NCBI GenBank assembly: GCA_903842575.1
Contig: CAIMMM010000154.1
Location: 1-64,000, forward strand
Direction: 5' to 3'
Length of the DNA stretch: 64,000 nt
Origin: an uncultured Bacteroidota bacterium
Lineage (GTDB): Bacteria > Bacteroidota > Bacteroidia > Flavobacteriales > Flavobacteriaceae
Each line of letters opens with the position of its first letter. Position 1 is the first letter of the stretch. Positions 38,521-43,391 of this stretch are shown here, piece after piece. Position numbers and translations under genes: made by a program. Under the pieces are notes generated by a model. The model saw only the letters and a list, made by a program, of their open reading frames with translations. It did no database searches and was not told the origin of the DNA.

Positions 38521-38564
38521 AAAACCACGAATACAAAATAAATATTTGTATTCGTGGTTTTTTT
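38521..38564. terminator. Bidirectional terminator
   Basis: The long stem AAACCACGAATACAAA / TTTGTATTCGTGGTTT with a short loop separates the DUF2911 gene from the convergent symporter gene. Confidence 0.88.
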
Positions 38565-40281
38565 ATGCCTTTATTTTTTTGTCTTTGAATAATATTTGGA
38601 AGAGTAAACCAAGAATAATCGTTAATGAAGCTCCTATAAAATTCAACCAAAGATAACCTAGTTTTTCTTGCCCTGTTGGATAAATATGAATGGTGTAATA
38701 ATAGATAAAGAATATGGTAGTTTGGCTAATAACAGCACTAAAAAAAACGGCGTTGGCTTTTATGTATTGTATGTAAAAACCAACTAAGAAAACACCCAAG
38801 ACGGTTCCGTAAAAAATGGATCCTACAATATTTACTAATTGGATTAAGTTTTCAAAGAGTGTTCCAACACATGCAAATAGTATGGCTATTATACCCCATA
38901 GAATTGTAAAATAACGAGTTGCATTTACATAATGCTTCTCTGATTTTTCCTCTTTTAAATTTCTTTTATAAATATCAATAGCTGTTGTAGAGGCTAATGC
39001 TGTTAATCCAGACGCGGAAGATGACATAGCTGCCGAAAGAATTACGGCTAATAAAAGGCCAATTAATCCTGTAGGTAAATAATGTAAAATGAAATAAATA
39101 AATACATAATCTTTATCATTAGTCTCTGCTTTTTCATCCACTTTTGTGATTATTTCCTTGGCTTGATCATGTAAATCGTTTTCTTTTTCTGAGAGTGAAA
39201 TCAATTTTTTTCGAAGAATTGGATTGTCATAATTTTGATTTAAATGGTCAATATAAAGCAAATTAAATTCTTTTTTTTCTTCGGATAAATCCATCAATTG
39301 CTTTTCCAATGCATTGTAATCTTTGGCATAGATGGATTTTTCTATTGCATTTTTATTAACGGGATTGAAATTTAATGGAACGGGATTAAATTGGAAAAAT
39401 ACAAAAACCATCACTCCGGTTAATAGTATAAAAAACTGCATGGGTACTTTTAAAAAACCATTCATGATTAAACCCATTTGGCTTTCTCTATCGGACTTCC
39501 CAGATAAATAGCGGCCAACTTGGGATTGATCGGTTCCGAAATAAGAAAGCATCAAGAAAAATCCACCCGTAATACCACTCCAAAATGTATAACGATTATT
39601 TAGATCGAAAGAGAAATCTAAAATATTCAATTTGTCATTAGCTCCAGCAATATGCATAGCATTGGAGAAAGTCATATCGTTTGGAAGCAAATGTAAAATA
39701 AGGAAAAACGTAATAAACATCCCGCTCATGATGACAAACATTTGTTGTTTTTGGGTAACATTTACTGCTTTTGTTCCACCCACAAAGGTGTAAATCATTA
39801 CCAAAATTCCAATGATAACATTAAGCAAAGTTAAATTCCAACCAAGTATGGATGACAAGATAATGGCTGGAGCATAAATAGTAATACCAGTTCCTAATCC
39901 ACGTTGTATTAAAAATAATATAGCAGTAAAAGAACGCGTTTTTAGGTCAAAACGTTGTTCCAGGTATTCGTATGCAGTAAACACTTTTAGACGATGATAT
40001 ATGGGAATAAAAGTCATGGAAATCACCACCATCGCAATAGGAAGTCCAAAATAAAATTGTACAAACCCCATGCCGTCATGGTAGGCTTGTCCCGGGGTTG
40101 ATAAAAAAGTAATAGCGCTTGCTTGGGTTGCCATTACCGAAAGCCCAACTGTCCACCAAGGTGTTTCTTTATTTCCTAGAATATATTCTTCAACATTTTT
40201 GCTTCCTTTGGTTTTATAAACACCATAGAAAACAATGAAAAGTAAAGTTACTATTAATACAATCCAGTCGAGTTGTTGCAT
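38563..40281 (-). CDS. Sodium:solute symporter (SSS family)
   Basis: This 572-aa integral membrane protein resembles Na+/solute symporters, with about 13 helices, the sodium-site region ATQASAITFLSTPGQAY near residue 55 and SAAMSSSASGLTALASTTAIDIYKRN later. A roughly 90-residue charged segment at about 298-390 (rich in Glu and Lys, likely coiled-coil) interrupts the helices, an unusual insertion. Its start is 1 bp after a 35-aa membrane peptide, and a PIG-L deacetylase gene precedes it, suggesting that the transported solute is an acetylated sugar or derivative. Substrate is unknown. Confidence 0.87.
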   Translation of the reverse strand: MQQLDWIVLIVTLLFIVFYGVYKTKGSKNVEEYILGNKETPWWTVGLSVMATQASAITFLSTPGQAYHDGMGFVQFYFGLPIAMVVISMTFIPIYHRLKVFTAYEYLEQRFDLKTRSFTAILFLIQRGLGTGITIYAPAIILSSILGWNLTLLNVIIGILVMIYTFVGGTKAVNVTQKQQMFVIMSGMFITFFLILHLLPNDMTFSNAMHIAGANDKLNILDFSFDLNNRYTFWSGITGGFFLMLSYFGTDQSQVGRYLSGKSDRESQMGLIMNGFLKVPMQFFILLTGVMVFVFFQFNPVPLNFNPVNKNAIEKSIYAKDYNALEKQLMDLSEEKKEFNLLYIDHLNQNYDNPILRKKLISLSEKENDLHDQAKEIITKVDEKAETNDKDYVFIYFILHYLPTGLIGLLLAVILSAAMSSSASGLTALASTTAIDIYKRNLKEEKSEKHYVNATRYFTILWGIIAILFACVGTLFENLIQLVNIVGSIFYGTVLGVFLVGFYIQYIKANAVFFSAVISQTTIFFIYYYTIHIYPTGQEKLGYLWLNFIGASLTIILGLLFQILFKDKKIKA

Positions 40282-40282
40282 A

Positions 40283-40390
40283 CTAAAAGAATATTTGCAT
40301 TAGAATAAAAAATATAGCAATATATATGAAGTTCACAACCAAAACCCAAGTATAACTATTTTTCCAAGTTGATTTGTTTTCTGTTCCCAT
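40283..40390 (-). CDS. 35-aa membrane peptide between PIG-L and the symporter
   Basis: This ORF is too short for the track. On the minus strand ATG at 40390 to TAG at 40283 gives 35 aa: a polar N-terminus (MGTENKSTWKNSYTW) and one hydrophobic helix (VLVVNFIYIAIFFILMQIFF). It sits with a 1-bp gap from the deacetylase stop and a 1-bp gap before the symporter ATG, so it is likely translated in the operon. Small hydrophobic partners are known for other SSS transporters (YjcH for ActP, YhdT for PanF), which suggests an accessory subunit. Confirmation needs conservation in relatives. Confidence 0.65.
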   Translation of the reverse strand: MGTENKSTWKNSYTWVLVVNFIYIAIFFILMQIFF

Positions 40391-40391
40391 A

Positions 40392-42890
40392 TTATTTCCC
40401 AATTGCTATCATATTTGCCAATAATCGAAAGGCACCAGGAACGCCTTGGGGCAATTCTCTAAAAAAGCTCAAACCCGTGTAAATATAATTTCCTTTCCCG
40501 TATTTTGCTACTAACAATGCACCATTTTTTGGTGTTTCTCCTTTGTCGTTGGCCGATAGAATAGGAGTGAAGTTAGCATCCCATTCGTTAGGATAATACA
40601 AACCTTGTTCTTGTTTCCAATTTTTAAAATCGTCAATAGTAATTTTATTTGGATAGTTTAAAATGGAATGATCTGGGTTTAGAAAACGAACTTCCACATT
40701 TTCTTCGGTAACTCTATCTCTAGAAATTTTTAATGGAAACGGCGCAATATTTGGCGTTACTAAATCGTCAGTTGTGTTGTATTGAACAATCATTGTTTTT
40801 CCGTTTTTTACAAAATCTAAAAGTATATTTTGTTTGAAAGCAAGTGCATTAACAACATTATAGGCACGAATTCCAGTCATTACAACGTCATAATCAAGGA
40901 GTTTTTCGTTTGTAATTTCTTCTGGTTTTAGGACGGTAACTTCATAACCCATTTGAGTCAAACTCTTAGGAACTTCATCACCAGCTCCCATAATGTAGGC
41001 GATTTTTTCATTCTTGGTTTTAATTTTCAAGCGAATAGCTTTGGCTTCAGCTGTTTTTAAAACCATTTGTTTGTAAATGTGTGGATAATTTATGTCAATT
41101 TTTTCTTTGTCATACGTTTTTCCATCAACAGTTACGATGCTTTTAATATTGATTTCGCTAGCTTCTTTTGATGGAAAAACTGTAAAAACCGCAATAATTT
41201 CTTCCCCTTTTTTAGCTAAAGTAAATGGAATTTCATTAGGTGAAACTTTCCAGCTTTCTGGAATATCAAGTTTTACATTACCTTGAACATTCTCTTTTCC
41301 AGCTTTTACTTTTGCAGTAATTGTTTTACTTCTGTCATTATTGAAAATATAAACTTTTTCAGGAATTGAGGAAGTAACAATAGGAACAATATCTAGCGGT
41401 TGATAAACTTCTCCTTTCACATCATCGGTGTATTTATAAACCACATTTTTTTCAAAAGAAATTTCAATCCCGTTAATTTCAATCCAAAACCCCACTTTTA
41501 CTTGACGTAAAACATCAGGAGTTCCAATTTTTTGTTGGTCATCAACATGATACATTCCAACAGTTCCTTTTTGATTCAGCCAATATGGATTTGTATATTC
41601 AAGTTCATTTGGAAGTTCCAAAGTATTGTTTTCCGTATAGAGAATGTTATTTTTAAGCTCAACTATTTTTTGCTCAGCTTTATAAACAGGAACAGCACCA
41701 ATGCCTTTTAATTTCATAGGTATGTTACTTCTGTTAATCACTTCAATTTTTACTTTTAAAGAACTTCCAGGCGTAGTTTCTTGATTTTCGGCAACAGCTT
41801 CAAGATATAAACCAGCACAAGAACCAATGATTTTTGTGATTTCTTCCGATTTAATATTTTTCCAATGTTCGTCTTCTAGTTTCTGAATTAAATCATAGGC
41901 TTTTACTAATTCTGGAATACTGACGGAAGGATTTTTAAAATCGAAGTTTTTCTCTACATTGTATAAGATATCGCCAATTGCTTTTCCTCCATTTATTCTA
42001 TTCCAAGTGGTATCAATGCCTTCAAAAATATTGGATTTATCGGTAGGCGTTACTCCTTTTAATAATTCTAAATATTCATCTTCTTCTCCTCGAGTACCAG
42101 TAGAACCAAAACCTTGTGATTGGTGACGACTTCTACTCAATGCCGCAATTTCTTGATTTGATTTTCCAACAGATTGATAGTAAACGCCCGTTTTTAAATT
42201 AATTAAGTTGGTTTTATCGGCTTTGTCAAATTTTTCTTTGCTTCCATAAAACCACCAAGATGTATTGAAAAATAAGCGTTTGGGTTGCCAAGTTTTTACT
42301 AATTTTAATTGATTTGGGAATATTGTTACGTCGTTTACTTTGTCGAAAGCTTCTACGCTCAACATGGCTGATGCGGTGTGATGCCCATGTGTTGTTCCGG
42401 GTGAACGATGATCAAATCGATTGATGATAACATCGGGTTGGAATTTTCTAATGGTCCAAATAATATCGCTTAATACTTGATCTTTATCCCAAATATTTAA
42501 TGTTTCATCAGGATTTTTTGAATAACCAAAATCATTGGCTCTAGAAAAAAATTGTTCTCCACCATCAATTTTTCTAGCTTCCATTAGTTCTTGAGTTCTA
42601 ATTAATCCTAGAAGTTCACGCAATTCTGGACCTATAAGATTTTGCCCTCCATCGCCTCTAGTTAATGATAAATAGCCAGTTCTAGCTTTCTTTTCATTAG
42701 ACAAATATGAAATTAACCTCGTATTTTCATCATCGGGATGTGCAGCAATATAAAGGACAGAACCTAAGAAATTGAGTTTTTGTATTTGATTGTAAATTTC
42801 AACAGCATTTGGTTTTTGAGGTTGCTGTGATACTACAATTTGAAAGGATAGAAGAAAAATAATGAAAGGACAATAGAAAAGCTTTTGCAT
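40392..42890 (-). CDS. PIG-L/LmbE-family deacetylase, large secreted form
   Basis: This 832-aa protein has a signal peptide (IIFLLSFQIVVSQ) and an N-terminal LmbE domain with the zinc motif AHPDDE (residues 56-61) and a HRSPGTTHGHHTA site near residue 165. The following region (about 360-600) is beta-rich, NPCBM/NEW3-like. The last ~200 residues resemble a ThuA- or glutamine-amidotransferase-like fold (IAYIMGAGDEVP, VMTGIRAYNV), without an evident catalytic Cys. PIG-L enzymes deacetylate N-acetyl sugars. With the adjacent symporter it may process an amino sugar derivative outside the cytoplasm. Confidence 0.85.
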   Translation of the reverse strand: MQKLFYCPFIIFLLSFQIVVSQQPQKPNAVEIYNQIQKLNFLGSVLYIAAHPDDENTRLISYLSNEKKARTGYLSLTRGDGGQNLIGPELRELLGLIRTQELMEARKIDGGEQFFSRANDFGYSKNPDETLNIWDKDQVLSDIIWTIRKFQPDVIINRFDHRSPGTTHGHHTASAMLSVEAFDKVNDVTIFPNQLKLVKTWQPKRLFFNTSWWFYGSKEKFDKADKTNLINLKTGVYYQSVGKSNQEIAALSRSRHQSQGFGSTGTRGEEDEYLELLKGVTPTDKSNIFEGIDTTWNRINGGKAIGDILYNVEKNFDFKNPSVSIPELVKAYDLIQKLEDEHWKNIKSEEITKIIGSCAGLYLEAVAENQETTPGSSLKVKIEVINRSNIPMKLKGIGAVPVYKAEQKIVELKNNILYTENNTLELPNELEYTNPYWLNQKGTVGMYHVDDQQKIGTPDVLRQVKVGFWIEINGIEISFEKNVVYKYTDDVKGEVYQPLDIVPIVTSSIPEKVYIFNNDRSKTITAKVKAGKENVQGNVKLDIPESWKVSPNEIPFTLAKKGEEIIAVFTVFPSKEASEINIKSIVTVDGKTYDKEKIDINYPHIYKQMVLKTAEAKAIRLKIKTKNEKIAYIMGAGDEVPKSLTQMGYEVTVLKPEEITNEKLLDYDVVMTGIRAYNVVNALAFKQNILLDFVKNGKTMIVQYNTTDDLVTPNIAPFPLKISRDRVTEENVEVRFLNPDHSILNYPNKITIDDFKNWKQEQGLYYPNEWDANFTPILSANDKGETPKNGALLVAKYGKGNYIYTGLSFFRELPQGVPGAFRLLANMIAIGK

Positions 42891-43001: not shown

Positions 43002-43391
43002 TCATTCTGTAGCTGCTGTTTGGTTCATAAATCGGCCTTTTGAATTATAAGGATATAATTTTTTGTGAATTTTTAGAAACTGTTGTGGATTTTCTTCCTC
43101 ATAATTTGTAATAGCAACTCGTGCTTTATTAAATAAAGAGTAGCCTCCATAATTTTGAGGAAGTTCAGCAGCAGTTTGCCATTTACCACTCATCTGGTAA
43201 TAATATACATTTTTCAAATTATCATAGTAGGCAAATAAATTTGGAAAATAGGAATAGCGAAGTTGACAATTTGTTTTTGGATCAATTGGCAATGAGGGTT
43301 TATCATAGCCTGGTGGCGGTGGTGCTTGCGCAATAGATGAATAGCAAGCTAATAGTAGTATCAGTAGGAATACAATTTTAGTTATTTTCAT
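43002..43391 (-). CDS. Secreted proline-rich hypothetical protein
   Basis: This 129-aa protein has a signal peptide (LLILLLACYSSIAQ), then a PPPPGYDKP proline-rich linker, and a compact aromatic-rich domain with a single Cys (KTNCQLRYSY). The sequence YYQMSGKWQTAAELPQNYGGYSLFNKARV suggests a small beta domain. I do not recognise a family. It may be an envelope protein. It is separate from its neighbours with 111 and 184 bp gaps. Confidence 0.6.
   Translation of the reverse strand: MKITKIVFLLILLLACYSSIAQAPPPPGYDKPSLPIDPKTNCQLRYSYFPNLFAYYDNLKNVYYYQMSGKWQTAAELPQNYGGYSLFNKARVAITNYEEENPQQFLKIHKKLYPYNSKGRFMNQTAATE

Follow-up and report, generated by a model that had tools for sequence, protein, structure and literature searches.

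Does the very short open reading frame (ORF) that lies between a deacetylase gene and a sodium symporter gene in the window (the whole stretch of 64,000 nucleotides that was analyzed) encode a protein and, if so, which of its neighbors would that protein serve? The three genes run on the minus strand in the order PIG-L-type deacetylase (42890–40392), short ORF (40390–40283) and SSS-family sodium:solute symporter (40281–38563), and the intergenic gaps on the two sides of the ORF are 1 bp each. As a preliminary description of the locus had reported, the ORF, which was missing from the ORF list, encodes a polar head and a single hydrophobic helix; it begins with ATG and comprises 35 codons followed by TAG. 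Its translation is MGTENKSTWKNSYTWVLVVNFIYIAIFFILMQIFF, and it is present as a single copy in its own genome.

Codon-level conservation, the check that had been recommended for this ORF, gave a clear result. Across 32 Flavobacterium-type loci, pN/pS in the peptide frame was 0.25 and no stop codons were found, whereas the other two forward frames of the same loci gave values of about 1 (0.99–1.13) and contained 20–73 stops; the random-placement null for these loci was 0.96 ± 0.07. Comparison of the peptide with its nearest relatives yielded pN/pS values of 0.09–0.36, and the mean entropy at codon positions 1, 2 and 3 was 0.63, 0.39 and 1.19, respectively. Because purifying selection is accompanied by an absence of in-frame stops, a chance ORF can be rejected, and the unlisted membrane peptide is, as judged by its codons, a real, conserved protein-coding gene. 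The members of its family are 29–44 amino acids long, with one helix, and share the motif W-K-x-x-Y-[TS]-x-V-L-x-x-N-x-x-Y-x-x-x-F-Y, in which Y13, N20, Y23 and F27 are kept in at least 90% of members.

The predicted transmembrane helix spans residues 16–34 (40289–40345, minus strand), with a Kyte-Doolittle hydropathy of 2.59. Lysine and arginine residues are more numerous before than after the helix in 183 of 186 peptides (mean 3.6 vs 0.34), and by the positive-inside rule this excess leads to a predicted topology with the N-terminus inside and the C-terminus outside. In some relatives the stop codon of the peptide gene is in frame with the SSS gene, and an AlphaFold model of such a read-through product, tethered by reading the stop as Gly, placed the peptide helix at residues 11–33 with moderate confidence (pLDDT about 66).

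The symporter encoded downstream (38563–40281, minus strand; 572 amino acids; Pfam SSF, 2.5e-41) scores well above the SSS profile cut-offs (PF00474, 142 bits vs 22.8; TIGR00813, 236 vs 184; family TC 2.A.21). Its nearest solved relatives are NIS and SiaT, it is a member of the SiaT/NIS/SGLT group, and the model obtained for a relative (L341) has the LeuT-type SSS fold, matching SiaT with a TM-score of 0.86 and also matching NIS and SGLT. Alignment and comparison with NIS showed that a polar stretch of about 80 residues, predicted to be extracellular, is inserted at about residues 305–389 (39115–39369, minus strand), where the solved SSS proteins do not align; NIS aligns to residues 19–297 and 398–553 only, and the insertion falls between these two blocks. 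Most of the 21 aligned members of the subfamily carry this probably extracellular insertion, which is shorter in some. The strongest covariation between peptide and symporter pairs N20 and Y23 of the former with L475, L482 and V486 of the latter; because these residues mark the Flavobacteriaceae clade, the signal is dominated by phylogeny.

In a survey of 121 Flavobacteriaceae genomes, one per genus, an ortholog of this symporter (54–67% identity) was found in 111, and the DNA upstream of it was read in 109. The absence of the ORF, or stop codons within it, in close relatives that share the gene order had been named as the outcome that would speak against a genuine gene; instead, a profile-matching ORF of 29–44 amino acids lies upstream of the symporter gene in 107 of these 109 genera, nearly always directly before it, and the peptide precedes the symporter in all 80 named relatives taken from a genome collection, from Flavobacterium to Tenacibaculum, Maribacter, Polaribacter and Psychroflexus. 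The gap between the two genes is mostly 0–10 bp. There is one peptide copy per genome, though most genomes have many SSS paralogs, and eleven members of the family without the SSS ortholog, one of them in the window's own genus, had no credible peptide (best E value 0.04). The two exceptions are G065, in which the PIG-L gene runs straight into the symporter gene and the peptide is absent, and G080, in which the peptide sits on another contig. Paralogs add two further observations. G078 (L103, contig C1) carries an SSS paralog of 56% identity that follows a response-regulator gene and has neither peptide nor PIG-L, and G113 has three peptide copies (C113, C165 and C258), two of which are just upstream of different SSS paralogs with 54–56% identity to that of the window.

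The association extends to the rest of the phylum. Among 346 genomes of the phylum, which the named relatives indicate to be Bacteroidota, 105 of 116 peptide profile hits lie immediately upstream of an SSS ortholog that was located by a separate search, as do all 55 hits with E ≤ 1e-7, which bears out the suggested tie between peptide and symporter. Both genes occur in 108 genomes, the peptide alone in 2, the symporter alone in 21 and neither in 215 (p = 4e-65, uncorrected for kinship); relatedness among the genomes exaggerates this p-value but leaves the adjacency result unaffected. Elsewhere in the order, the arrangement of PIG-L, peptide and SSS genes is found again in other families, with a shifted motif, and a clade-specific profile added eight genomes with the peptide beside the symporter. 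In some distant clades (families f38 and f51 and genome G458), the symporter is present and the peptide was undetected, with the clade-specific profile as well. One genome, G337 (L209), has PIG-L and an intact peptide gene followed by a truncated SSS remnant. Three others of the same genus (G414, G434 and G441) have PIG-L and SSS genes without the peptide, so that mirror-image losses occur within one genus. The exceptions represented by G065, the G078 paralog, f38, f51 and G458 indicate that the peptide is not strictly indispensable.

A different departure from adjacency is seen in four genomes of genus g236 (G336, G347, G362 and G403), where the peptide gene is 14.6–15.3 kb from the symporter gene; the two share a strand and are separated by a gene cluster. 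At L381–L383 a cluster of about 14 kb lies exactly between the two genes and includes genes for NagB, a secreted PIG-L protein, an ECF sigma factor, FecR and SusC/SusD, along with a sugar MFS transporter, a ROK kinase, a PcRGLX-like protein and a DASS transporter; NagB was unseen in G362.

Taken together, these patterns suggest that the peptide is a dedicated accessory subunit, a membrane microprotein, of one SSS-symporter subfamily, a reading that we regard as likely. Its lack of coverage by curated families aside, the conserved position of its gene before one kind of SSS gene makes it very probably a real small subunit. We propose that the peptide would span the membrane as one helix, its N-terminus, rich in Lys and Arg, facing the cytoplasm and its C-terminus lying outside, and that it would pack against the symporter, to which we infer that it binds physically. 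The N-termini of SSS transporters lie outside (PMC7918813), and that of this symporter would do so too. Once bound, the peptide would most likely stabilize the transporter or help it to fold, or else tune its activity, as MAP17 does with SGLT2.

An operon-wide reading that is compatible with a subunit role concerns the substrate: the secreted PIG-L protein would remove an acyl group, and the symporter with its peptide would import the resulting amino sugar. The upstream gene (40392–42890, minus strand) encodes an 832-amino acid protein (Pfam PIG-L, 1.9e-13) with a PF02585 score of 51.5 bits vs a cut-off of 28.2, visible zinc motifs of the HPDD and HxxH type (AAHPDDEN and HGHHTAS) and, by eye, a signal-peptide-like N-terminus. 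Assignment to Mca or BshB, of the mycothiol and bacillithiol pathways, was rejected, as the scores fell below the equivalog cut-offs (43.5 vs 277 and 28.9 vs 195 bits), and a PDB sequence search with the protein gave no match. Farther upstream on the same strand, a 129-amino acid, secreted-looking ORF (43002–43391) without an NCBIfam match could be part of the same operon.

The preliminary description had put forward the uptake of an amino sugar or thiol conjugate in deacetylated form, and what speaks for the amino-sugar version is genomic context: the gene upstream is usually PIG-L, and in the distant genus g236 the symporter gene adjoins NagB (TIGR00502, over its cut-off) and a second PIG-L, which is secreted, together with a ROK kinase, a sugar transporter of the MFS type and SusC/D. 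A family of NagB/PIG-L fusions is also widespread in the phylum. Conversely, NagB was undetected in the window's genome and in six relatives of its family, the fusion is not generally beside the symporter gene, and the g236 cluster could have landed between the peptide and symporter genes by chance. Amino-sugar import by the putative two-part transporter is thus a possibility that we hold only tentatively.

Several alternatives to a supporting subunit were considered. The peptide might instead be a small regulator that sends the symporter to proteolysis or inhibits it, as MgtR does with MgtA/MgtB and SgrT with PtsG. Enterobacterial single-helix proteins of similar size act in this way, and other proteins of fewer than 50 amino acids regulate bacterial transporters (PMC10710835). 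Negative regulation would fit all of the association data too, but the constant place of the gene before that of the transporter in nearly every genome seems better suited to a stoichiometric subunit, and we consider a regulator of this type unlikely.

The close spacing of the two genes (typically −1 to +8 bp to the symporter start) could also reflect a cis-acting leader or translational coupler, whose translation would open up the symporter mRNA at its start, with little importance for the amino acid sequence. Against this, selection on the amino acids of the peptide is strongly purifying and its residue motif is kept across families. In addition, the peptide has been retained 370 bp from the symporter gene at L019 and about 15 kb from it in the four g236 genomes, distances at which a leader could not survive, and in G337 it persists beside the truncated remnant. 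We therefore judge a leader function to be improbable; its retention far from the symporter gene in four genomes indicates that the peptide probably acts in trans.

A role as membrane anchor or export factor for the PIG-L deacetylase is the least probable of these readings, and a highly implausible one, since, despite a PIG-L gene directly upstream in 72 of the 80 named loci and in nearly all loci of the family, the peptide stays with the symporter where PIG-L is absent (8 named loci, with MscS-type or other genes upstream instead, and L025, L058, L100, L102 and L104) or where a WbqC-like gene, identified by eye, takes its place in one distant clade, and G065 retains PIG-L and the symporter without the peptide. 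Six loci in the family survey lack PIG-L upstream and still have the peptide; at L025, L058, L100 and L102 it is preceded by other genes such as Maf, which was named by eye. The earlier view that the peptide joins deacetylase and symporter must accordingly be revised: it stays with the symporter, and PIG-L is a usual but not constant neighbor, with Maf, MscS, WbqC or another gene in its place at some loci. A literature search on a PIG-L/SSS operon or on the peptide found nothing.

Genes of fewer than 50 codons are often skipped by annotation, and the one described here, although it occurs widely in the phylum, is not covered by any curated Pfam, NCBIfam or PHROG family. Our sequence comparisons indicate that it represents a new, widely conserved family of predicted one-helix proteins tied to one SSS subfamily. 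If the peptide is a subunit, the SSS transporters of this subfamily would be two-component transporters that earlier work has handled as incomplete units, and the peptide may be needed to express these symporters in functional form.

How does the peptide compare with known small partners of transporters? Neither alone nor as a family did it give a significant match in Pfam, NCBIfam, PHROG or PDB; weak hits to SosA (E value 0.11), TIGR03745 (0.002) and DUF2976 (0.0034) were far below cut-off and reflect shared hydrophobic helices. Small membrane proteins associated with SSS symporters are known, among them DUF485, which includes YjcH of the ActP acetate symporter, and DUF4212, which is associated with SSS genes and has an N-terminal W-K motif before its helix. 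DUF485 differs in size and architecture, with an 88-position Pfam model, about 100 amino acids and two hydrophobic segments, and no member of the one-helix, 29–44-amino acid peptide family matches PF04341. DUF4212 is also distinct, at about 87 amino acids with two helices and a conserved FWFAQQGS motif; hmmscan found no match to it by peptide members, and hhalign assigned the pair a probability of only 7.9%. DUF997/YhdT was likewise rejected, with no Pfam or NCBIfam match among 66 peptide members. The suggestion that the peptide forms a different, shorter class than the known SSS partners is consistent with all three comparisons. DUF485 and DUF4212 occur elsewhere in some of the peptide-bearing genomes, the latter at different loci.

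Single-helix partners are also found outside the SSS family. MetS is the single-helix small subunit of MetP, an NSS transporter with the LeuT fold; it serves another transporter family, and an NCBIfam match to the peptide was absent. On the transporter side, the sialic acid symporter SiaT (5nv9) is the closest PDB profile match to the SSS subfamily and the best fold match to the modeled relative, but the polar insertion, about 80 residues long, that follows residue 304 in the window's symporter has no counterpart in it. We know of no small subunit for SiaT.

The greatest resemblance is to MAP17 (PDZK1IP1), the single-helix accessory subunit of the human SSS/SLC5 transporters SGLT1 and SGLT2, which have the same fold; its helix attaches to SGLT2 at TM13, and SGLT2 requires MAP17 for its function (PMC10803289). 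Like MAP17, the peptide has a single predicted transmembrane helix, and its gene is kept together with that of an SSS transporter; the peptide differs in being bacterial, about 35 amino acids long without extra domains, and encoded beside its transporter. A search of the peptide profile against PDB chains, MAP17 included, gave no match. By analogy, MAP17 is the closest functional analogue of the proposed subunit, and is not homologous to it by the tests made. On balance, we favor the idea that this unnamed, phylum-wide single-helix family provides a stoichiometric, trans-acting SSS subunit, a bacterial counterpart of MAP17 that would have evolved independently. The peptide would also offer a small and genetically tractable model with which to ask why an extra helix is recruited by SLC5 transporters, as MAP17 is by SGLT2.
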